Assembly: GCF_009687845.1 (NCBI RefSeq)
Contig: NZ_BLAD01000058.1
Location: 1-64,000 of the forward strand
DNA from: Acrocarpospora corrugata
Lineage (GTDB): Bacteria > Actinomycetota > Actinomycetes > Streptosporangiales > Streptosporangiaceae
Length of the DNA: 64,000 nucleotides
Reading direction: 5' to 3'
Shown here: positions 7,511-16,560 of the stretch, piece by piece
How the letters are laid out: every line of letters begins with the position of its first letter
Numbering within the stretch: the stretch's first letter is position 1
Translations under genes and position numbers: made by a program
Notes under the pieces: generated by a model
The model's database searches: none
Seen by the model: only the letters and a program-made list of their open reading frames with translations
Told to the model about the DNA's origin: nothing

Positions 7511-7939
7511 TCAGGAGGTCGCGAGTGACTCCAGGGCCGGAAGTGCGGCGGTGAGGGCGGTGCGCTGGGCTGGGGTGAGGGCGGTGACGCCGGCAATGAA
7601 GAATGCCGAGCGGTCCTCGCGTAGGTGGGCGAGGTGGCGGTGGCCCTCGTCGGTGAGGCTGAGGAGGGAGGCGCGGCCGTCGGCCGGGTCGGGGGTGCGG
7701 GTGGTCAGGCCGGAGGATTCGAGGCTGGCGACCAGGCGGCTCTGGGTGGGGGCGCTGACCCCTTCGTGGATGGCCAGGTCGACCAGGCGTACCGGGCCGA
7801 GCGTGTCCAGGGCGGACAGGGTGGAGCGCTGGCTCGCCGTCAGGGTCTGCGGGGCGTGCTGGCGGGCGCGGCGGGCCAGGCGGGACAGGGTGGCGCGCAG
7901 GCGTTCGGCGAGCTCTACGTCGGTGAGCGTGTCTGTCAT
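7511..7939 (-). CDS. MarR-family transcriptional regulator
   Basis: A 142-residue winged-helix regulator of MarR length. The recognition helix region contains APTQSRLVASLESSGL, followed by the wing TRTPDPADGRASLLSLTDEG, which is the classic MarR signature (DxRxxxxxLT). Its ATG at 7939 overlaps the stop of the upstream MFS remnant (ATGA), so exporter and regulator formed one minus-strand operon. MarR proteins in this arrangement usually repress the linked exporter and respond to a small toxic ligand. Since the exporter here is broken, the regulator may be an orphan. The ligand cannot be inferred. Confidence 0.9.
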   Translation of the reverse strand: MTDTLTDVELAERLRATLSRLARRARQHAPQTLTASQRSTLSALDTLGPVRLVDLAIHEGVSAPTQSRLVASLESSGLTTRTPDPADGRASLLSLTDEGHRHLAHLREDRSAFFIAGVTALTPAQRTALTAALPALESLATS

Positions 7940-8478
7940 GGTCCGCCCACGGTAACCGGGTTGAGGGGGGAGAGCTGGGCGAGGGTTCCGGTCGGGGCGA
8001 GCAGGCTTTCGATCGGGTTGTAGCCGAGGAAGGCGGCGAACAGGGCGCCGACCGGGGGGAGTTGCCCGATGTGGGTGGCTTCGGCGGTCTGTACGCCGTG
8101 CTGGGTGAGGCCCTGGGCGAGGGTGGCGACCGCGGTCAGCAGACCGGCCGCGTTCCCGGCCGTGAAGGCGACCAGCAGGCTGGTCAGCCAGATGGCGAAC
8201 GTCGCGTTGCCCAGCCAGTCGATCCGGGCGCCTGCCACCCGGGAGACGGTCTCCCGCAGCGACTTGTACGCCCAGATCGTCCCGATGACGCCGATCGGCG
8301 CGGACGCGAAGAACACCAGCCGCCAGTCGATCTCGCTCAGCAGTCCGCCCGCGATGAGCCCAGGAAGCTGCCCGCGATCCCGGCGACCTGGTTGACGCCC
8401 ATGGCCATGCCGCGCCGGTGCACCGGAAAGGCGTCGGTGATGATGGCGGCGGACCCAGCGATAGCGGTCCGTCTGCAC
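7936..8478 (-). pseudogene. MFS exporter remnant (DHA2-like), deleted and frameshifted
   Basis: The open frame from GTG 8478 hides a damaged major-facilitator gene. In the +1 frame the first part reads as mid-transporter sequence (GMAMGVNQVAGIAGSFLG). A one-base loss near 8362 shifts it into the frame that continues LIAGGLLSEIDWRLVFF. After about 100 residues the protein jumps to the extreme C-terminal DHA2 signature (HIGQLPPVGALFAAFLGYNP), so several central helices are missing. The N-terminal helices are missing as well. A promoter-like AT-rich stretch and GGAAGG site before the start survive. Intact relatives are about 450-520 residues. It cannot make a working transporter. It overlaps the marR start. 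Confidence 0.85.
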
Positions 8479-8747: not shown

Positions 8748-9362
8748 TCAGACGAGCCCGTCCGCGTCCTCGCGCAGGCGCGCGCCCTTTCTGAAGATCG
8801 TCCCCAGGCCGATCAGGAGGAGGGCGAATCCGACGGGGGCCGCGGTGAACGGCCAATAGGTGTCGATCAGCCCTTCGGCGGGGGTTCCGTCGACCATGTA
8901 CACCGCCACGAACGTTCTGAGGGGCTCGACGAGCAAGCCGTATCCGGCCACGCAACCGGCCATCAGGAAGATCCGGCGGGCATTGGCCGGTACGAAGGGG
9001 TCACCTGACCTGAGGGTCCGGGCGATCTGCCACAGCAGGAAGACGATGATGGCGGTCAGCAGCGCACCGACCACCAGTGGGGTGTTGAGGACGAGGTTCT
9101 GCCACCTGTCCGGCCGGTCGATCGAGATGGTCGCGCTGTATTCCAGGGTGGACCTCAGTGGTCCGATCTGCTGGGGGTTGGTTAACGGCCACTCCCGTAA
9201 CTGGGGCACCTGCATGCTGGCGTGATCCGAGGGCGGCCCCGCGGCCTGCCATCCGGCTTGGGCCAGGTAGACGACGCACAGCGCGAAAGCCAGGTAGACC
9301 AGGTTCTCGAAGATCGCCCACCAGATGCGGACTGACCACGTGCGCAGTTCCGTCCATCCCAT
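8748..9362 (-). CDS. DUF2975 membrane protein
   Basis: A 204-residue protein with about four hydrophobic segments (roughly residues 15-35, 95-115, 133-152 and 172-192). It matches DUF2975 in layout, including the sequence around RSGDPFVPANARR between the second and third helices. It is the first gene of a two-gene unit with the small XRE regulator, separated by one base. An AGAGGA ribosome site precedes ATG 9362. DUF2975 proteins are proposed partners or sensors of the adjacent regulator, but the molecular function is unknown. Confidence 0.88.
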   Translation of the reverse strand: MGWTELRTWSVRIWWAIFENLVYLAFALCVVYLAQAGWQAAGPPSDHASMQVPQLREWPLTNPQQIGPLRSTLEYSATISIDRPDRWQNLVLNTPLVVGALLTAIIVFLLWQIARTLRSGDPFVPANARRIFLMAGCVAGYGLLVEPLRTFVAVYMVDGTPAEGLIDTYWPFTAAPVGFALLLIGLGTIFRKGARLREDADGLV

Positions 9363-9373
9363 GAAATCCTCTT

Positions 9374-9406
9374 TTATCGTTTTTCGATAACAACGATAAA
9401 CGATAA
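9374..9406. promoter_or_regulatory. CGATAA-repeat operator of the DUF2975/XRE pair
   Basis: TTATCG at 9374-9379 and CGATAA at 9385-9390 form a perfect 6-bp inverted repeat. Two further CGATAA copies follow at 9394-9399 and 9401-9406. The cluster is only about 10-45 bases upstream of the DUF2975 start and is very AT-rich for this genome. It is a good candidate for autoregulatory binding by the XRE protein. It also lies directly beyond the mdcH stop codon. Confidence 0.6.
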
Positions 9407-9407
9407 G

Positions 9408-10334
9408 TCATGGGCTGTGAAGGCCGCGCGCGAGCGCTGCCGCGTCGGTGACGCGGGTGTCGGCGAGGGTGATGACGCGGGCCCGGGGGTGGGCGGCCTG
9501 GGCGATCCGGGCCAGGACATGTCCCGGGGGAGTCTGGATGAACACGGCCGTGCCGAGTTCGCCGAGCAGGGCGATTCCGTCACGCCACCGGACGGTGGTG
9601 GCGACGCTCCGGGCGAGATCGTCCAGTACGGCGCCGGAGTCGTGCAGGAGCCGCCCGGTGGCGCCGCCGAGGTAGGGGACACGGAGACGGCGCCGGGGGA
9701 GCGCGGCGAGGTGGTCCGCCATCGCGTCGGCGACCCGGGCGAGCAACGGGCAGTGCGAGGGCACGCTGACGTCCAGGCGCTGAACGCGCCGCGCGCCCGC
9801 CTGGGCCGCCGCCGCGGCGAGGCGCTCCAGGGCGGCATCGCTGCCGGAGACCACGGCTTGGTGGTCGGTGTTGACGATGGCCAGATAGACGGGTTCACCC
9901 TCGGTGCCGGCCGACTCGACCAGCCGCCGGACCTGCGGAATGCTCAACCCCAGCACGGCCGCCATGCCGTAGCCGGAAGGGCAGGCGTCGCGCATAAGCT
10001 CGCCACGCCGGCGTACGGCCATGAGGGCTTCGGCGAACGTCAGCACCCCGGCGGCGACGGCGGCCGGAAATGCCCCCGAGGAGTGCCCCGCCACCGCGTC
10101 AGGGATGACGCCTTCGGCGAGCAGGGCACCAGCCGAAGCGACTCCGGCGACGCACAGGGCCACCTGCGCGGTGACGGTCGACGCCAACGCCTCCGCGCCG
10201 TCCTGCCGGGCCGACCCGGGCAGGACCCGCTCGGCCTCGGCGAGCGCCGCCGCGACGGCGGGGTGATCAGGCAGGTCGTGGAGCATCCCGGGCCGCTGTG
10301 TGCCCTGACCGGGGTACAGAAACGCGACCCTCAT
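9408..10334 (-). CDS. mdcH: Malonate decarboxylase epsilon subunit (malonyl transferase)
   Basis: A 308-residue acyltransferase of the FabD/MdcH type. It begins MRVAFLYPGQGTQRPGM and carries the nucleophile elbow GHSSG with catalytic Ser85; the second active-site His lies in VPSHCPLL. In biotin-independent malonate decarboxylase, MdcH loads malonate from malonyl-CoA onto the phosphoribosyl-dephospho-CoA arm of MdcC to start the cycle. It is the last gene of the mdc operon. Its ATG overlaps the stop of a 39-codon repeat-derived ORF (ATGA), not mdcG directly. The enzyme is cytoplasmic. Confidence 0.93.
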   Translation of the reverse strand: MRVAFLYPGQGTQRPGMLHDLPDHPAVAAALAEAERVLPGSARQDGAEALASTVTAQVALCVAGVASAGALLAEGVIPDAVAGHSSGAFPAAVAAGVLTFAEALMAVRRRGELMRDACPSGYGMAAVLGLSIPQVRRLVESAGTEGEPVYLAIVNTDHQAVVSGSDAALERLAAAAAQAGARRVQRLDVSVPSHCPLLARVADAMADHLAALPRRRLRVPYLGGATGRLLHDSGAVLDDLARSVATTVRWRDGIALLGELGTAVFIQTPPGHVLARIAQAAHPRARVITLADTRVTDAAALARGLHSP

Positions 10335-10450
10335 CCGAGGGTCCAGGGGTGGGTGAGCCCGGCCCGGCTGTCCGGGCAGGGCGCGATCCTCGTTCGGGAG
10401 CTCACGGGTGGGCGAGCGCCCCGGCTGTTCCGACAGAACGCGACCTTCAT
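10322..10450 (-). repeat. mdcG-mdcH junction repeat (about 58 bp, 2.2 copies)
   Basis: The sequence around the mdcH start (GCGACCCTCAT on the plus strand at 10324) recurs at 10383 and 10440, spaced 59 and 57 bases. Each copy carries the end-of-mdcG/start-of-mdcH context. A 39-residue ORF (10450 to 10331, beginning MKVAFCRN, compare mdcH MRVAFLYP) starts inside the mdcG stop and ends inside the mdcH start, so both junctions remain ATGA overlaps. The middle copy has ACG instead of ATG. Confidence 0.8.
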
Positions 10451-11055
10451 TCGGGAGCCCACGGATCGTCCACCAGTTGCGGGCCGTGCGCGGTGCGGAT
10501 CATGACGAGACCGTCGGCGTGGGCCCATTCGGTCAGGCTCAGTCCGCCTCGGGGGGTCTCCAGCTGGCAGTCGACCGTGACGGGGACCCCCGTCAGGGCA
10601 GTCACCAGCCGCGCAGCCTGAGCCCGGTCCAGTCTGCGTGGTGCCCGTATCAGCAGGTCCAGATCGCTTCCCGGGTGGGTGACTGGCCGCCCGGTGGCGA
10701 GTTCGAAGCCGAGGCTGCCGGTCGGCCCCCAGACGGCGTCGTCGCCGAGTTCGGCGGACAGTCGCAGGGTGACGGCGGAGAGGGCGGTGGCGAACTGGGG
10801 GAGTCTGGGCGGCCGTTTCCGCAAATCCTCGGGCGTTACGACGCGAACGACCGAGTCCGATGGAACGATGGCGGCGTGCCGCAGCCGCCGTTCGGTTCCG
10901 CGCACCCCGACGGGGATGAGACCGGGGGAGCATGGCGCCCGCCGGACGACCGCCCAAGGGCATGCGGCCAGCGACGCGCGGGCCCAATCGGGGAGGGCGG
11001 CGTCGGGTGCCGACCTCCCGCTGAGCAGAAGCAGGTCGTGCGGGCGCGCGATCAT
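10447..11055 (-). CDS. mdcG: Malonate decarboxylase holo-ACP synthase
   Basis: A 202-residue nucleotidyltransferase that attaches the phosphoribosyl-dephospho-CoA prosthetic group to a Ser of the MdcC acyl carrier protein. The signature GSDLDLLI (Gly129, Ser130, Asp131, Asp133) is the metal/nucleotide site of this family. The ending LTEWAHADGLVMIRTAHGP and LVDDPWAPE also fits MdcG. I chose ATG 11055 (MIARPHDLLLL, the usual MdcG beginning). The frame stays open further upstream only because it crosses a tandem repeat. The stop of the repeat-encoded ORF ahead of it overlaps this ATG. Confidence 0.92.
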   Translation of the reverse strand: MIARPHDLLLLSGRSAPDAALPDWARASLAACPWAVVRRAPCSPGLIPVGVRGTERRLRHAAIVPSDSVVRVVTPEDLRKRPPRLPQFATALSAVTLRLSAELGDDAVWGPTGSLGFELATGRPVTHPGSDLDLLIRAPRRLDRAQAARLVTALTGVPVTVDCQLETPRGGLSLTEWAHADGLVMIRTAHGPQLVDDPWAPE

Positions 11056-11236
11056 CCCCATTGGGCGCTGACCCGATTGGGCGCTGACCCGATTGGGCGC
11101 TGACCCGATTGGGCGCTGACTCCCATTGCGCAATCACCCCCATAGCGCGGCCACCCCATAGCGCGGCCACCCCATAGCGCGGCCACCGCTATTGCGCGGT
11201 CACGTGTCATTGCGTGGTCACCCCCACTGGGCGGTC
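11052..11236 (-). repeat. mdcE-mdcG junction array (about 16 bp, roughly 11 imperfect copies)
   Basis: A run of degenerate 16- to 18-bp units fills the space between mdcE and mdcG. On the plus strand, CGATTGGGCGCTGACC occurs three times in tandem (about 11062-11110) and CCCATAGCGCGGCCAC three times (about 11139-11187). Variants run into the mdcE stop. The unit matches the mdcE 3' end (coding TAQWG then stop). A 52-residue ORF (11210 to 11052) spans the array, ends SAQWG like MdcE, and its stop overlaps the mdcG ATG. A 4-codon ORF links mdcE to it. Confidence 0.85.
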
Positions 11237-12024
11237 ATCGCCTCGCGGACGCGGATGGACGCGGCCCGGGTCTGGTGCGCGCCGGGGGAGGTCAGCCGGT
11301 TGCTCAGGTCACGGGGACCGCGGCGGGCCCGCGCCACGGCGGCCACCAGTGCATCCTTCACCTTCCGGACATCCGTGCCAGCCGGGTCGGCCGCGTTCTC
11401 AACCTCCAGCAGGTCGTCACACAGCCCGAGCTTCGCCCACTCGGCGACGTCGTAGGAGAGCGGAGGCACCCGCCGCGCCAACTCGTCAAGCTCCGCCACA
11501 CTCCGCAGGGTCACCCTCGCCGCGGCCTCCTTGTGCATGGCGTGAATCACCACACCCGGATCGTTGAGCGCCAGGATCTGATTCGCCTGGAATCCGTGCG
11601 CCAGGAACCCACCCGACAGCGCCGCCCCGACGATGAGCGCGATCACCGGATGCCCCGCGATACGAGCGCGCACATAGGCGTCCACTGTGACAGCCAGCGC
11701 GTGATGCAGCCCAACCAACTCCTCGACCCGCCCATACGCCTGACTCGGCAAATCGACGACGGCGACGATCGGACGCCGCCGATCCTCGGGCAGTCCCGCG
11801 TCCGCCCCGACGACGCCGCCCACCGCCCCGGCAAGGGCGAACGCCTCACGGAGACCAACCTCGCCCTTCCGCGCCCGATGGTACGGACTCCCCGGATCCG
11901 GAACGACGGCGATCAGCCGGGCGGTGTCGTCCCCCAGCACGGCATCAGCGGTGATCACCGACGGAACCCCCTGGCCGACCTCACCTTCGGCCAGCGCCCG
12001 CGTCCAGCTCCAGCCGCGGCTCAT
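11218..12024 (-). CDS. mdcE: Malonate decarboxylase gamma subunit
   Basis: A 268-residue crotonase-fold carboxyltransferase-like subunit that, with MdcD, decarboxylates malonyl-S-MdcC to acetyl-S-MdcC without biotin. Recognisable MdcE features: AVVDLPSQAYGRVEE, then HPVIALIVGAALSGGFLAHG forming the oxyanion-hole region, and a typical C-terminal LGLCDDLLEV. Start ATG 12024 has GGAGGA upstream and overlaps the stop of a repeat-encoded 63-residue ORF. The last codons (MTAQWG) already belong to the 16-bp repeat family of the next junction. Confidence 0.93.
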   Translation of the reverse strand: MSRGWSWTRALAEGEVGQGVPSVITADAVLGDDTARLIAVVPDPGSPYHRARKGEVGLREAFALAGAVGGVVGADAGLPEDRRRPIVAVVDLPSQAYGRVEELVGLHHALAVTVDAYVRARIAGHPVIALIVGAALSGGFLAHGFQANQILALNDPGVVIHAMHKEAAARVTLRSVAELDELARRVPPLSYDVAEWAKLGLCDDLLEVENAADPAGTDVRKVKDALVAAVARARRGPRDLSNRLTSPGAHQTRAASIRVREAMTAQWG

Positions 12025-12400
12025 GACCGATCCTCCTTCGACGGTACGGTTCGCGCCCCCACCCAGATCACGAGCGATCCATCCTCGACGGCGCGGCCAG
12101 CGCCCTCAATTCGGCTCATGGCCGATCTCGCTTCGCTGGCACAGCCAGCGCCCGACTCATGACCGATCCTTCGCCGGACGAAGGTACGACTCGCGCCCTC
12201 ACCCCGGTACATAGCCGTTCCCCTTCAACGGCACGGCCAGCGCCCCTGCCCGGATCGCGGCCGATCCTTCGACAGGACGGCCAGCACCCCCGCCTGGCTT
12301 ACGACCGATCCTCCTTCGACAAGACAGCCAGCGCCCTCGTCCTGGCTTATGGCCGTTCCCCTTCGATGGCACGGCCAGCGCCCGGCTCATCGTTCATCCC
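12021..12400 (-). repeat. mdcD-mdcE junction array (about 40-50 bp, 8-9 imperfect copies)
   Basis: Each unit contains a copy of the mdcD tail plus the mdcE ribosome site and start: on the minus strand roughly GCGCTGGCCGTGCC, then TCGAAGG, then a variant of ATCGGTCATGAGCC. Copies begin near 12021, 12070, 12116, 12157, 12209, 12256, 12299, 12347 and 12387. Two 63-residue ORFs (12390 to 12199 and 12212 to 12021) run through them. The first starts in the mdcD stop (ATGA), the two overlap by 14 bases, and the second ends in the mdcE start, so translation could pass along the whole array. Confidence 0.85.
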
Positions 12401-13232
12401 CCTTCGACGGTATGGCCGGTAGGTCGGCCGGTTCCGGCGGGTCGGTCGGGTCGACGGCTGCGAGTAGCGCCCCCAGCGAGTCGATCCACCCGGAGCGATG
12501 ATCGGCGGGCACGCCACGGCCAAGGCCCTCGATAACGGCTGCGCGGATGGCCGCGACGTCGTCGGGAACCAGCGTGTCCGCCAGGCCGGTCCGAATACGT
12601 TGGGCGCCGCCGTCGATCGACCAGATCAACGGGTGGTCGGAGGCGTCGAACTCGGCGACACCGGCCTCGGACTCGATCACCTGGGGGCCGTCCAGTCCGA
12701 GCCGCCCCTCACTGGTGATGATCAACTCGGTGCACAGCCCGGCCGCGATGCTCATTCCGCCGAAACAGCCCAGCATTCCGGCGATGACGCCGATGACCGG
12801 CTGCAGCGGCCGTAACTCCAGCAGCGCCGCACAGACCTCCGCGACCGTGGCCAGGCCCAGGTTGGCCTCCTGGAGCCGTACCCCGCCCGTCTCCAGCAGC
12901 AGAACCGCCGCGGTGGGGACGCCCGCGCGGCTGTCGCGGGCGGCCAGCGACAGGGCGGTGGCGATCTTCACGCCGGAGACCTCGCCGATGCCGCCGCCCT
13001 GGAAGGCCTGCTCGATGCCGATCACGACGACGGCTCGCCCGGCGAGCTTTCCCCGTACCACGACCACCCCGTCGTCGGACTGCGGGACGACACCCTGGGG
13101 TTCCAGCCACGGTGACTCGATCCGGTCGAAAGGGCCGCAAAGTTCGCGGGCGGTGCCGCCGTCGAGCAGGGCGAAGGCGCGCGCCCGTGCGTCCAGTTCG
13201 ATGAAGCTGGCCCGAGCCGTCATCGATGTCAT
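12387..13232 (-). CDS. mdcD: Malonate decarboxylase beta subunit
   Basis: A 281-residue carboxyltransferase-like subunit, partner of MdcE in the decarboxylation step. The family signature is clear: AGRAVVVIGIEQAFQGGGIGEVSG is broken across AGRAVVVIGI and QGGGIGEVSG, followed by LLLETGGVRLQEAN and GMLGCFGGMSIAAG. I start it at ATG 13232, which overlaps the mdcC stop (ATGA), rather than the longer open frame from 13373. This C/D junction is the only one in the operon without a tandem duplication. The C-terminal AIPSKGDER is the sequence amplified in the following array. Confidence 0.93.
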   Translation of the reverse strand: MTSMTARASFIELDARARAFALLDGGTARELCGPFDRIESPWLEPQGVVPQSDDGVVVVRGKLAGRAVVVIGIEQAFQGGGIGEVSGVKIATALSLAARDSRAGVPTAAVLLLETGGVRLQEANLGLATVAEVCAALLELRPLQPVIGVIAGMLGCFGGMSIAAGLCTELIITSEGRLGLDGPQVIESEAGVAEFDASDHPLIWSIDGGAQRIRTGLADTLVPDDVAAIRAAVIEGLGRGVPADHRSGWIDSLGALLAAVDPTDPPEPADLPAIPSKGDER

Positions 13233-13534
13233 TTCCCGTCCTCCTCCATGCTCTCCTCGACGGCTTGCCGCAGCCGCAGCGCGACCACACCGGGGGTCGC
13301 CCCGGCGTCGTTGAGCTCGAAACCGGCGGACACCGGGTGGCGGGCGAAGAAACGCTCCAGCACGACCCGCCACACGGTGTCGAACCCATCGACGCTGGTG
13401 CGGACACGCACCCGGGCGACACCTACCGGCCCCGGCGTCATCAGCACCTCCAGATCCCCCGAACCGGCCACCCCGACGTGAGCCCGCCGCGCTGGCGGCC
13501 GATCGGCTGGGAACTCGAAGTTCAGCGTTTGCAC
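13229..13534 (-). CDS. mdcC: Malonate decarboxylase acyl carrier protein (delta subunit)
   Basis: A 101-residue acyl carrier subunit. The conserved GVAGSGDLEVL places Ser25, the known attachment site of the 2'-(5''-phosphoribosyl)-3'-dephospho-CoA arm, exactly where the Klebsiella protein has it. Its GTG start (13534) overlaps the stop of a preceding 35-residue truncated copy of its own N-terminus. A second truncated copy lies before that. The ribosome site GGAGGTG lies 5 bases upstream. Acetyl and malonyl groups are carried on this protein during turnover. Confidence 0.93.
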   Translation of the reverse strand: MQTLNFEFPADRPPARRAHVGVAGSGDLEVLMTPGPVGVARVRVRTSVDGFDTVWRVVLERFFARHPVSAGFELNDAGATPGVVALRLRQAVEESMEEDGK

Positions 13535-13629
13535 GAGGCCACCTCCAGATCGCTCGGACCGGGGACCTCGACGTGTGCCCGCCGCGCTGGCGGCCGGTTG
13601 GCCGGGAAGTCGAAGTTCAGCGTTTGCAC
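13522..13629 (-). pseudogene. Truncated tandem copy 2 of mdcC (35 aa)
   Basis: A GTG-started ORF beginning MQTLNFDFPAN that repeats the first 31 codons of mdcC. It ends SCKR at a TGA that overlaps the true mdcC start by 13 bases. The prosthetic-group region reads PGPSDLEV, so the Ser is one place off from position 25. It has the same GGAGGTG-type ribosome site as mdcC. It could be translated by coupling, but makes no complete carrier domain. Confidence 0.75.
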
Positions 13630-13724
13630 GAGAGCACCCCCAGATCCCCCGAATCGGCGACCTCGACGTGTGCCCGGCGGGCCGGTGATCGGTCGGCCGG
13701 GAACTCCATGTTCAGCGTCTGCAC
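13617..13724 (-). pseudogene. Truncated tandem copy 1 of mdcC (35 aa)
   Basis: Beginning MQTLNMEFPADRS, this copy starts inside the mdcB stop region (13-base overlap) and ends SCKR inside copy 2. It keeps Ser25 in ADSGDLGVL, the motif recognised for prosthetic-group attachment. Whether such a short peptide can be modified is unknown. Copies are exactly 95 bp apart (starts 13724, 13629, 13534). Because 95 is not a multiple of three, each copy terminates early instead of extending the protein. Confidence 0.75.
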
Positions 13725-14701
13725 GAGACGGCCTCTCGGTCGGTTTCGGCGCCGGACCCATGCCGCGGCACCATGTCAAGGAAGAGCGCGGCGGCCAGGA
13801 GATCGCCGCTGCCACCCGGTGACAGCCCGTACGCGCGCAGCCGTTCGTCTAGCTCGGCGAGGGCCGTTCGGCCCGGGACCGTCCCCGTACCGCCCTCGGC
13901 CAGGACGCGGGCCGCGCCGGTGCGCACTACCCGCAGTCCCGCGAGGCCGCCGCGATGCAGCACGCAGGTGTCGTTCAGGTGGCTCATCACCGCCAGCAGC
14001 GCGTCCAGCCGGGCGACGTCCTCGGCGTGTCCGGCCGCCCGGCCCTGGCGTAGCCGCGGTAGCGCGACCTCCACTACATGCGGGAAACCGGCCGCCGCTT
14101 CGCCGCGGGCACCGGGCACTCCGAACCGCCGCCGTACCCGTTCGCCGTGGGAGAGCACACTCGCAGGGACGTCCGCGTCCGGGCTGGCCGCGCTCCCGGA
14201 CGCGCCCTCCGCGTCGGCCGCGTCGGGGAGCGCGGCCAGCCGGGCCGCCCGGCCGACGGCTGACGGCTCGTCGGCGGCGGTGGCGGCGCCCGCGACCAGC
14301 AGCCCGAGCGCCCACAGCGCACCACGGTGCGTGTTCACCCCACGGGTGGCCCCGAGCATGACCCGCTCGCCCGCACGCCCGATCCGCCCCAGTTCGGTAC
14401 GGAGCCCGCTCCCCACGGCCATCCGCTGCGCCGCCACTGCGAGCGACCGGAAGACGGGCCGCAGCGCCTCGGCGGAAGCCAGCATGAGCGGCAGATCCAT
14501 GTCGCCGTGCGCGCCGCCGCCACGATGGTCGACCAGGCCTGGCTTGGGCCCCAGCCGCGCCTCCGCGCCCAGGGCCCGGACCGCGAGATCGGCCAGCATC
14601 GCCGCACGCCCACCGGTCATCACCGGATCACCAGGTCCGGGTCCGGGCTGGTGGGTGGTCATTGCCGGATCACCAGGTCCGGAACTGGGCCGGCGGATCA
14701 T
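13712..14701 (-). CDS. mdcB: Triphosphoribosyl-dephospho-CoA synthase
   Basis: A CitG/MdcB-type enzyme that makes the triphosphoribosyl-dephospho-CoA precursor of the MdcC prosthetic group from ATP and dephospho-CoA. The family start (LADLAVRALGAEARLGPKPG, then LVDHRGGGAHGDMDLPLML) and GVNTHRGALWALGLL are clear. ATG 14701 has GGGAGG at ideal distance and gives 329 residues. Family homology starts near the third Met at 14620, and the 27 residues before it come from a 42-bp tandem repeat rich in Pro/Gly. It overlaps the mdcA 3' end by 32 bases. The true start could be 14701, 14662 or 14620. Confidence 0.88.
   Translation of the reverse strand: MIRRPSSGPGDPAMTTHQPGPGPGDPVMTGGRAAMLADLAVRALGAEARLGPKPGLVDHRGGGAHGDMDLPLMLASAEALRPVFRSLAVAAQRMAVGSGLRTELGRIGRAGERVMLGATRGVNTHRGALWALGLLVAGAATAADEPSAVGRAARLAALPDAADAEGASGSAASPDADVPASVLSHGERVRRRFGVPGARGEAAAGFPHVVEVALPRLRQGRAAGHAEDVARLDALLAVMSHLNDTCVLHRGGLAGLRVVRTGAARVLAEGGTGTVPGRTALAELDERLRAYGLSPGGSGDLLAAALFLDMVPRHGSGAETDREAVSCRR
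14618..14699 (-). repeat. mdcA-mdcB junction repeat (about 42 bp, 2 copies)
   Basis: GGACCTGGTGATCCGG followed by an ATG occurs twice, 42 bases apart (ATG 14662 and ATG 14620). The first copy contains the mdcA stop codon. Because 42 is a multiple of three, the duplication here is translated as an N-terminal extension of MdcB (GPGDPAM, GPGDPVM) rather than creating a new ORF. Confidence 0.7.
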
Positions 14702-16331
14702 AGAGACCTCCCGACCAGGTGACCAGATCCTCGATGCTGCGGGCCGCCAGTAGGGAGCGCTTGGCTTTGCGGACGTCCACTCTCAGGTCCTCGGGTAGTG
14801 CCACCAGGCCGTCGCGGCGTAGTGCTTCGACGCGCCGCTCATTCAGGTTTCGGCCGACCGGGGTGGCGCCCGCGATGGCGGCCAGGGCTTCACGCCGTTC
14901 GGCCAGGCTGGAGGCCTTGTAGAGGTAGGCCACTCCCTCTTCGGTGACGACGTGGCTGACGTCCGCGCCGTAGATCATGACTGGGGGGATGGGCATGCCG
15001 GTGTCCGCGCCCACCTGGATCGCGTCCAGGGACTCCACGAAAGCGGGCGTGCCGCCGGCCCGGAAGGTCTGGGTGATCTGCACGACGAGCTTGCGTCCCC
15101 GTAGCGCGGGTGGTTCACCGGCGGGCAGGCTCAGCCACGCGGGGGAGGAGTGGCGGCGGCCGTGCGGGTCGTGCCCCATGTTGGGAGCGCCGCCGAAACC
15201 GGTCAGCCGACCCTCGGTTACCGTCGAGGAGTTCGCGGAGGCGTCGATCTGTAGTGAAGAGCCGATGAACATGTCCACCGCGTACTGACCGGCGAGCTGG
15301 CACAGCACCCGGTTGGAGCGGAGCGAGCCGTCGCGGCCGGTGAAGAACACGTCGGGGCGGGCGGCGACGTAACGCTCGGTGCCCGGTTCGCCGCCGAAGC
15401 AGTGCACCGACTCCACCCAGCCGCTCTCGATCGCCGGGATGAGCGTCGGGTGCGGGTTGAGCGTCCAGTGCTTGCAGATTTTCCCGCGCAGGCCCAGTTC
15501 CTCGCCGTAGGTGGGCAGGATGAGTTCGATCGCCGCGGTGTCGTAGCCGATCCCGTGGTTCAGCGCCGTCACCCCGTGCCGCTCGTAGACGCCGCGCAGC
15601 GCCAGCATGGCCATCAGGATGTCCACCTGGCCGATCTGGCGCGGGTCCCGGGTGAAGAGCGGCTCCAGCGCGTACGGCCGGGGGCTGGCCACGACCAGGT
15701 CCACCCAGTCGCCGGGGATGTCCACCCGGCGCACCTTGTCCACCAGCTCGTTGACCTGGACCAGCACGACGCCGTCGCGGAACGCCGCCGCCTCGGCGAT
15801 GGTCGGGGTGTCCTCGGTGCCGGGCCCGGTGTACAGGTTGCCGTCCCGGTCGGCCTGCTCGGCGCAGAGCAGGACCACGTCGGGGGCGAGGTCGACGAAC
15901 ATCCGCGCGTACAGCTCGACGTAGGTGTGGATCGCCCCGACCTCGACCTTGCCGTCGGCCAGCAGTTGCGCCATCCGGACGCTCTGCGGCCCGGCGTAGG
16001 CGAAGTCGAGGCGGCGGGCCACGCCGCGCTCGAAGACGTCCAGGTGCTCGGGCAGGCTGATCGAGGAGATCAGCAGATGCAGGTCATGCACCACCTTCGG
16101 GTCGCAGCCTGCCAGCGCCTCGGCCAGGAAGTCGGCCTGCTTCTGGTTGTCGCCCTCCAGCGCGACCCGGTCGCCGGGACGCAACAGCGCCTGCAGGGCG
16201 TCCAGGATCCGCCCGGCGTCCAGCACCCGGCCCGAGGCGAACGGCTCGACGGCTTCCAGCCGTTCCCGCTTCGCGGCCCGCCGCCGGGTCCAGCTCCGCG
16301 CGGACGCCGCGGCCTGCCTCGATGCCGACAT
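14670..16331 (-). CDS. mdcA: Malonate decarboxylase alpha subunit (acetyl-S-ACP:malonate transferase)
   Basis: A 553-residue CoA-transferase-fold subunit that swaps acetate for malonate on the MdcC arm and so drives turnover. Diagnostic MdcA segments: VALEGDNQKQADFLAEAL near the start, KVVHDLHLLISSISLPEHL, SSLQIDASANSSTVTEGRL, FGGAPNMGHDPHGRRHSS and the tail ARSIEDLVTWSGGLYDPP. Length is normal for the family. It is the first gene of mdcABCDEGH. A GGAGG lies 13 bases before ATG 16331, somewhat far. No malonate transporter or MdcR regulator gene is seen alongside. Confidence 0.95.
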   Translation of the reverse strand: MSASRQAAASARSWTRRRAAKRERLEAVEPFASGRVLDAGRILDALQALLRPGDRVALEGDNQKQADFLAEALAGCDPKVVHDLHLLISSISLPEHLDVFERGVARRLDFAYAGPQSVRMAQLLADGKVEVGAIHTYVELYARMFVDLAPDVVLLCAEQADRDGNLYTGPGTEDTPTIAEAAAFRDGVVLVQVNELVDKVRRVDIPGDWVDLVVASPRPYALEPLFTRDPRQIGQVDILMAMLALRGVYERHGVTALNHGIGYDTAAIELILPTYGEELGLRGKICKHWTLNPHPTLIPAIESGWVESVHCFGGEPGTERYVAARPDVFFTGRDGSLRSNRVLCQLAGQYAVDMFIGSSLQIDASANSSTVTEGRLTGFGGAPNMGHDPHGRRHSSPAWLSLPAGEPPALRGRKLVVQITQTFRAGGTPAFVESLDAIQVGADTGMPIPPVMIYGADVSHVVTEEGVAYLYKASSLAERREALAAIAGATPVGRNLNERRVEALRRDGLVALPEDLRVDVRKAKRSLLAARSIEDLVTWSGGLYDPPAQFRTW

Positions 16332-16340
16332 GGGCTTGTG

Positions 16341-16560
16341 ATGCCTCCGACGGCGGCGCGGCTAACCCAACGGGAGTTAAAGGTGGCCCTTGACCGGCTG
16401 CGCGCCGAGGGCGTGATCGAGTTCGAGCGCGAGGAGAGCGTCGAAGACTGGGCGCGCCGCCACCGCCACCCGCCGCCTGCGCCACGCTTCGGCCCCTCCA
16501 GGCAGCGCACGTTCGCGCTGGCTGGGCTGGTCGCCGAACCCCTGGGTGACCGTTCGGGAT
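16341..16560 (+). other. Possible winged-helix gene fragment upstream of mdcA
   Basis: The 230-base gap between mdcA and the sigma gene must hold the mdc promoter. On the plus strand from ATG 16341 a frame reads LTQRELKVALDRLRAEGVIE, which resembles the helix-turn-helix/wing entry of GntR-like regulators. It then loses any family character. I regard it as a possible decayed regulator fragment. No operator is obvious. Confidence 0.2.

Follow-up and report, generated by a model that had tools for sequence, protein, structure and literature searches.

Serial tandem duplications at the gene junctions of the malonate decarboxylase operon of Acrocarpospora corrugata

The malonate decarboxylase operon mdcABCDEGH of the actinomycete Acrocarpospora corrugata lies on the minus strand of a 64,000-nucleotide stretch of contig NZ_BLAD01000058.1 (the window, to which all coordinates refer unless stated). 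At five of its six junctions (A/B, B/C, D/E, E/G, and G/H), the segment that joins the end of one gene to the start of the next is repeated in tandem, and the sixth, C/D, is free of repeats and keeps its ATGA overlap intact. The unusual feature is the presence of repeats at five of six junctions together in one operon. The repeats were located with Tandem Repeats Finder (TRF) and a direct-repeat search, which confirmed the five duplicated junctions and the clean C/D junction claimed in a first-pass annotation made from the sequence alone. With moderate confidence, we read the pattern as local tandem duplication at gene overlaps that was probably filtered by reading frame.

The A/B repeat (14615..14696), detected by direct-repeat search, consists of 2 copies at a spacing of 42 bp that are 83% identical over 40 nt, and it provides mdcB with two in-frame ATGs 42 bp apart. 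The B/C, D/E, and G/H arrays were found by both methods. At B/C (13443..13742), three 95-bp copies are 80-85% alike, each unit comprising the end of mdcB and the first ~31 codons of mdcC. The D/E array (12017..12424) is built of ~44-48 bp units that carry the ribosome-site-like sequence GAAGGAGG and a start; 7 cores are recognizable in the gap, at spacings of 44-48 bp with one of 92, and the copies are 61-76% alike. The G/H array (10316..10464) has 3 copies of 57/59 bp at 79%. TRF resolved the E/G junction (11056..11203) into two 16-bp arrays (11056-11120 and 11138-11203), each with 4.1 copies, with 97% and 92% matches, all within 148 bp. The unit size of about 16 bp given for E/G in the first-pass annotation was correct, but the array is more extensive than that figure suggests, with about 150 bp of such units. 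All five repeats are in the orientation of the operon (minus strand). Read by eye, the units resemble the local junction sequence, in line with the earlier view that each is a copy of its own junction. In searches of the own genome with four of the five arrays, those at D/E, E/G, and G/H matched only themselves, and the B/C array matched itself and two weak short stretches (64 nt at 79%; 23 nt). The coding interiors, previously described as repeat-free, are nearly so: they hold only weak arrays, of which the strongest, in mdcA (15435-15471, 18 bp x 2.1), scores 53 and the smaller arrays in mdcB and mdcE 30-40, against 102-402 for the junction arrays.

We compared the junctions with the mdc operons of 22 relatives in the family, which mostly overlap and lack these arrays. 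The B/C junction stands at -13 in 19/22 of them (the others at +26, -97, and -20), and G/H at -4 in 21/22, with one at +19. D/E is overlapping in 18/22, fused in 3, and at +64 in one; E/G is at -4 or -10 in 17/22. Acrocarpospora pleiomorpha NBRC 16267, a congener whose MdcA is 94% identical to that of the window, and a second relative (G002) have plain overlaps at B/C, D/E, E/G, and G/H, so the expansions are specific to the A. corrugata lineage; by this comparison all four are lineage-specific gains. The B/C gain amounts to exactly two 95-bp units. The first B/C copy is equidistant (80%) from the mdcC start of the window and that of A. pleiomorpha, and the second has changes in common with the window mdcC, which suggests that the array grew stepwise. 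A/B was excluded from the coupling count, its ancestral state being a short gap and not an overlap. An A/B value of 52 in A. pleiomorpha proved to be an alignment artefact; no duplication is present there.

The gaps in A. corrugata now measure 177 (B/C), 362 (D/E), 162 (E/G), and 112 bp (G/H), and all four are spanned by chains of short open reading frames (mini-ORFs), in which the upstream stop overlaps a mini-ORF start and the last mini-ORF stop overlaps the real start. Bridging was scored for overlaps of 1-13 bases and ATG or GTG starts. B/C holds two mini-ORFs of 35 codons each, the first (13617..13724) overlapping the mdcB stop and the second mini-ORF, and the second (13522..13629) overlapping the mdcC start. 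D/E holds three, of 63 (12199..12390), 28 (12116..12202), and 32 codons (12021..12119), the last overlapping the mdcE start. E/G holds two, of 6 (11207..11227) and 52 codons (11052..11210), the latter overlapping the mdcG start, and the single 39-codon mini-ORF at G/H (10331..10450) overlaps both the mdcG stop and the mdcH start; all are on the minus strand. The chains end on the gene in an ATGA overlap at D/E, E/G, and G/H and in a 13-base overlap at B/C. For the four expanded overlaps, these chains substantiate the earlier claim of continued bridging. For comparison, 0.78 Mb of the genome contains 101 further gaps of 90-450 bp; 2 of these are bridged, one of which is the junction before hutF, itself triplicated.

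The following course of events could account for these observations. Ancestrally, most mdc genes of the family would have abutted in stop/start overlaps of -13 at B/C, -4 at D/E and G/H, and -4 or -10 at E/G. Local tandem duplication, possibly by slippage or short-homology recombination, would then have repeatedly copied the gene end, the overlap, and the next start, so that the stop and start of every copy overlap. With a unit of 0 or 2 modulo 3 the downstream gene would stay reachable, either because its N terminus is extended in frame or because a mini-ORF ends on the next start. Termination and reinitiation could then pass ribosomes that leave the upstream gene on to the real start. Duplications that broke the relay were probably lost, and the remaining ones would drift. 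As a guess, locally high duplication or a relaxed constraint on spacing may explain why mdc gained so many.

Simulation showed how far bridging follows from duplication itself. A fresh two-copy duplication kept its coupling at a rate of 75-100% for units of 0 or 2 modulo 3. With units of 1 modulo 3, it was kept in 0-2% at five junction/locus pairs, in 76% at E/G, and in 50% at one G/H. Overall, those five pairs stayed coupled in 59-69% of cases and two further pairs in 82% and 92%; one pair, with neither ATG nor GTG in its overlap, gave 0. An earlier simulation gave near-zero coupling at G/H because the two relatives used lack an ATG or GTG in that overlap, and the same holds for L004 in the present simulation. 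Duplicating an overlapping stop/start thus yields bridging largely by itself, and bridging alone is no proof of selection; the strong selection suggested by the 2/101 control gaps is weakened accordingly. The earlier proposal that stop/start cassettes are duplicated and kept for coupling thus holds for the local, lineage-specific copies and their bridging, and only in part for the selection. When divergence like that observed was added, the chance of retention was 0.52-0.54 at B/C, 0.27-0.33 at D/E, 0.62-0.64 at E/G, and 0.57-0.67 at G/H.

Across the family mdc operons, 77/90 junctions of these four kinds retain the overlap and 13 are expanded. Coupling persists in 12 of the 13 expanded ones (11 by script, plus the window E/G junction when the true mdcG start is used). 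Several results weigh against a relay maintained by a frame filter. The sole expanded and uncoupled case of the 13 lies in a distant operon in which mdcD and mdcE are fused (L173). Outside mdc, only 5 of 16 testable TRF-array junctions of A. corrugata are coupled. Bridging also depends on the rule: when overlaps of 1-4 bases are demanded, B/C is no longer bridged and 1/101 controls passes, and with ATG starts only, G/H alone stays bridged. Neutral decay would keep all four junctions bridged with a probability of 5-7% (product of the rates), which leaves the filter unproven. Strong ribosome-site-like sequences lie directly before the mdcC and mdcE starts, where a relay may be unneeded. Taken together, the evidence leans towards a filter against uncoupling without being decisive.

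The control rate is rule-dependent as well, since it differs between rules. When in-frame starts were allowed and gaps of 14-370 bp were considered, 53/460 controls were coupled in the own genome, with mdc left out, and 20/129, 17/74, and 37/245 in further control sets. The 12 bridged junctions of the own genome comprise three in mdc, one at hutF, and 8 without an array; mdc E/G was missed owing to a truncated mdcG call. Genes were called with a simple script based on codon usage, which misplaces some starts, that of mdcG among them. In the 8 array-free junctions the two starts are 25-40% identical, with p > 0.05 in 5/8, so some bridged junctions are not duplications. None of the 16 TRF-array junctions of Sphaerisporangium corydalis is bridged.

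These data also bear on neutral spacer growth without a relay, in which each gene would use its own ribosome site, duplications would be tolerated for lying between genes, and the mini-ORFs would be untranslated by-products. We regard this as a real, if distinctly lesser, possibility. The simulated yield of bridging in most phases fits it, as do the ribosome-site-like sequences at mdcC and mdcE and the general abundance of tandem repeats (131 arrays within coding sequences and, in this tally, 24/843 junctions). The B/C mini-ORFs show no clear protein-level constraint either; their differences from mdcC fall mostly at third positions for copy 1 (12/17) but not for copy 2 (7/14). Neutral growth is, however, harder to reconcile with mdcG and mdcH, which have no obvious ribosome site before their starts, with four intact chains at a likelihood of only ~6% under neutral decay, and with the 12/13 expanded family overlaps that remain coupled.

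We next consider clustering. In 1.58 Mb (~17%) of the genome, 26/843 same-strand junctions carry repeats, five of them in mdc, and 0/200 shuffled junctions exceeded the same repeat threshold in a scan that covered 842 of the real ones. Five repeat-bearing junctions within six consecutive ones arose in 1/20,000 permutations over all junctions and in 0/20,000 among gaps of 40 bp or more, figures that overstate the true surprise, as the window was chosen for looking odd and most of the genome is unsampled. Elsewhere, repeats occur at 15/203 junctions in S. corydalis, at 12/469 in a set of mostly Paraburkholderia loci, and at 8/215 scanned junctions in the family loci, which were fetched around mdc and so are uninformative on whether mdc is prone to repeats in general. 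Other genes of A. corrugata often contain in-frame tandem repeats, with 131 arrays in coding sequences in the same 1.58 Mb. As a separate observation, one locus (L115, G000:C72, 14.8-19.0 kb) has arrays of 18, 39, and 47 bp at three adjacent junctions, none of them bridged, and two of the three lie within one transporter operon.

Such clustering would be expected if the number or state of units at each junction governed how much of one mdc subunit is made relative to another and had been selected, a possibility raised in the first-pass annotation. The permutation results favor this, as does a second lineage, S. corydalis, with several altered mdc junctions. Even so, we think it unlikely: S. 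corydalis is rich in repeat-bearing junctions anyway, and plain overlaps suffice in most relatives with intact operons.

Junction duplication of this kind is found at other loci and in other genomes. In S. corydalis, mdc D/E has a 68-bp duplication with a 23-codon mini-ORF, and arrays stand at the mdcB end (27 bp x 5.0), the mdcG start (36 bp x 4.9), and the mdcG end (51 bp x 2.2). G003, another genome of the genus, shows a 23-bp step at G/H; its A/B junction contains a mini-ORF of 78 codons that includes a copy, now diverged, of the mdcB start. In a different phylum, Paraburkholderia rhynchosiae carries a 75-bp x 4.2 array, 96% alike, at mdcA/B (L065, 11.6-12.0 kb), and P. dilworthii (L045) has two diverged copies of the 75-bp unit at the same junction, its copy number differing from that of P. 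rhynchosiae. The A. corrugata junction before hutF holds about three 77-bp copies. That of A. pleiomorpha holds a different 83-bp duplication (73/82 identical) with a 28-codon mini-ORF, and by eye the junction is single-copy in three other genomes of the genus (loci L258-L262). The two hutF duplications, which affect the same coupled junction but differ in composition, are independent. Given these independent cases in S. corydalis, G003, Paraburkholderia, and hutF, junction duplication appears as a recurrent process that is not unique to the A. corrugata mdc operon.

Known systems resemble the mdc junctions in part. Mycobacterial interspersed repetitive units (MIRUs) are able to stand in tandem between genes. 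They are described as apparently mobile and as inserting at the start codons of genes, with an ORF coupled at -4 (PMC12548453). The mdc arrays share with them a short repeat at the gene start and an ORF coupled to the gene with -4 geometry; unlike MIRUs, which are described as apparently mobile and occupy many sites, the mdc arrays are built at every junction from a separate unit that derives from the flanking sequence. That a mobile MIRU-like element was inserted at coupled starts is therefore very improbable: the -4 overlap of the unit ORF with the gene start, seen at D/E, E/G, and G/H, is found as in MIRUs (PMC12548453), but the unit differs at each junction and the four arrays searched show no dispersal at many loci, bar the two weak B/C matches. 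The ancestral and relay overlaps also show the -4 and related geometry of termination-reinitiation coupling (PMC12548453), and overlapping or adjacent stops and starts are found at the expanded junctions. In contrast to standard coupling, the putative coupling here would pass through one to three extra mini-ORFs. Intergenic TAACTGA direct repeats in Beggiatoaceae are likewise tandem direct repeats between genes, but there one 7-base unit is reused at many loci and is not a local junction copy (PMC4679880). Term searches of the open-access literature yielded no description of an operon whose junctions were locally duplicated in series, although such searches say little about absence. Contrary to the earlier statement that no such pattern was known, the kind of junction has precedents in the other loci and the MIRUs (PMC12548453); what remains unusual is that a single operon carries five of six. 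What may be new is that relay mini-ORFs of a known coupling kind appear to be locally generated and non-mobile.

An assembly artefact is highly unlikely, for although the assembly is a 9.27-Mb draft of 170 contigs and the near-identical 16-bp E/G copies could be miscounted, at the remaining four junctions the copies have diverged by 15-39%, beyond what misassembly creates, the contig spans 119,362 bases, and comparable arrays occur in other assemblies.

Under frame-filtered local duplication, the relays, if translated, would form a natural test of how far serial reinitiation can stretch translational coupling. They would also suggest a rule for survivable junction duplications, namely a unit of 0 or 2 modulo 3. 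Non-mobile mini-ORFs could arise between genes in this way, a possible origin of MIRU-like architectures. We doubt the broader proposition that bacterial operons generally acquire relay mini-ORFs, without a mobile element, by duplicating coupled stop/start cassettes under a frame filter, and that such events have here repeatedly set relative mdc subunit output.

The operon itself is intact. In a profile search all seven genes score above the NCBIfam cut-offs, and gene order is as in relatives. All on the minus strand, they are mdcA (alpha subunit of malonate decarboxylase, 14670..16331; TIGR01110, 886.7 bits, cut-off 789.15), mdcB (longest frame 13712..14701, with likely starts near 14662 and 14620 by eye; TIGR03132, 303.5 bits, cut-off 282.35), mdcC (acyl carrier subunit, 13229..13534; TIGR03130, 116 bits, cut-off 84.1), mdcD (beta subunit, 12387..13232; TIGR03133, 341.4 bits, cut-off 278.15), mdcE (gamma subunit, 11218..12024; TIGR03134, 272.9 bits, cut-off 237.15), mdcG (holo-ACP synthase, 10447..11055; TIGR03135, 138.4 bits, cut-off 99.7), and mdcH (epsilon subunit, 9408..10334; TIGR03131), which passes only narrowly (299.9 vs 297.9 bits). 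Purifying selection acts on the mdc genes (dN/dS 0.07-0.40). An Rfam scan of 9300-16500 gave 0 matches at the gathering score, that is, no known structured RNA. Near the operon, a frame at 7936-8478 on the minus strand resembles a piece of a membrane transporter, judging from its residues, and is possibly a remnant.

The distribution of mdc is patchy: an mdcE match (E <= 1e-20) is present in 25/345 genomes of the order, and mdcA is missing in 1/5 genomes of the genus. In G002 (L087, G002:C48:46000-60000), mdcA is cut to about its last 110 residues, with a 21-bp x 3.3 repeat inside; directly upstream lies an unrelated frame that we take to be acetyltransferase-like. Despite the mdcA remnant, this genome keeps the other six mdc genes together with their overlaps.

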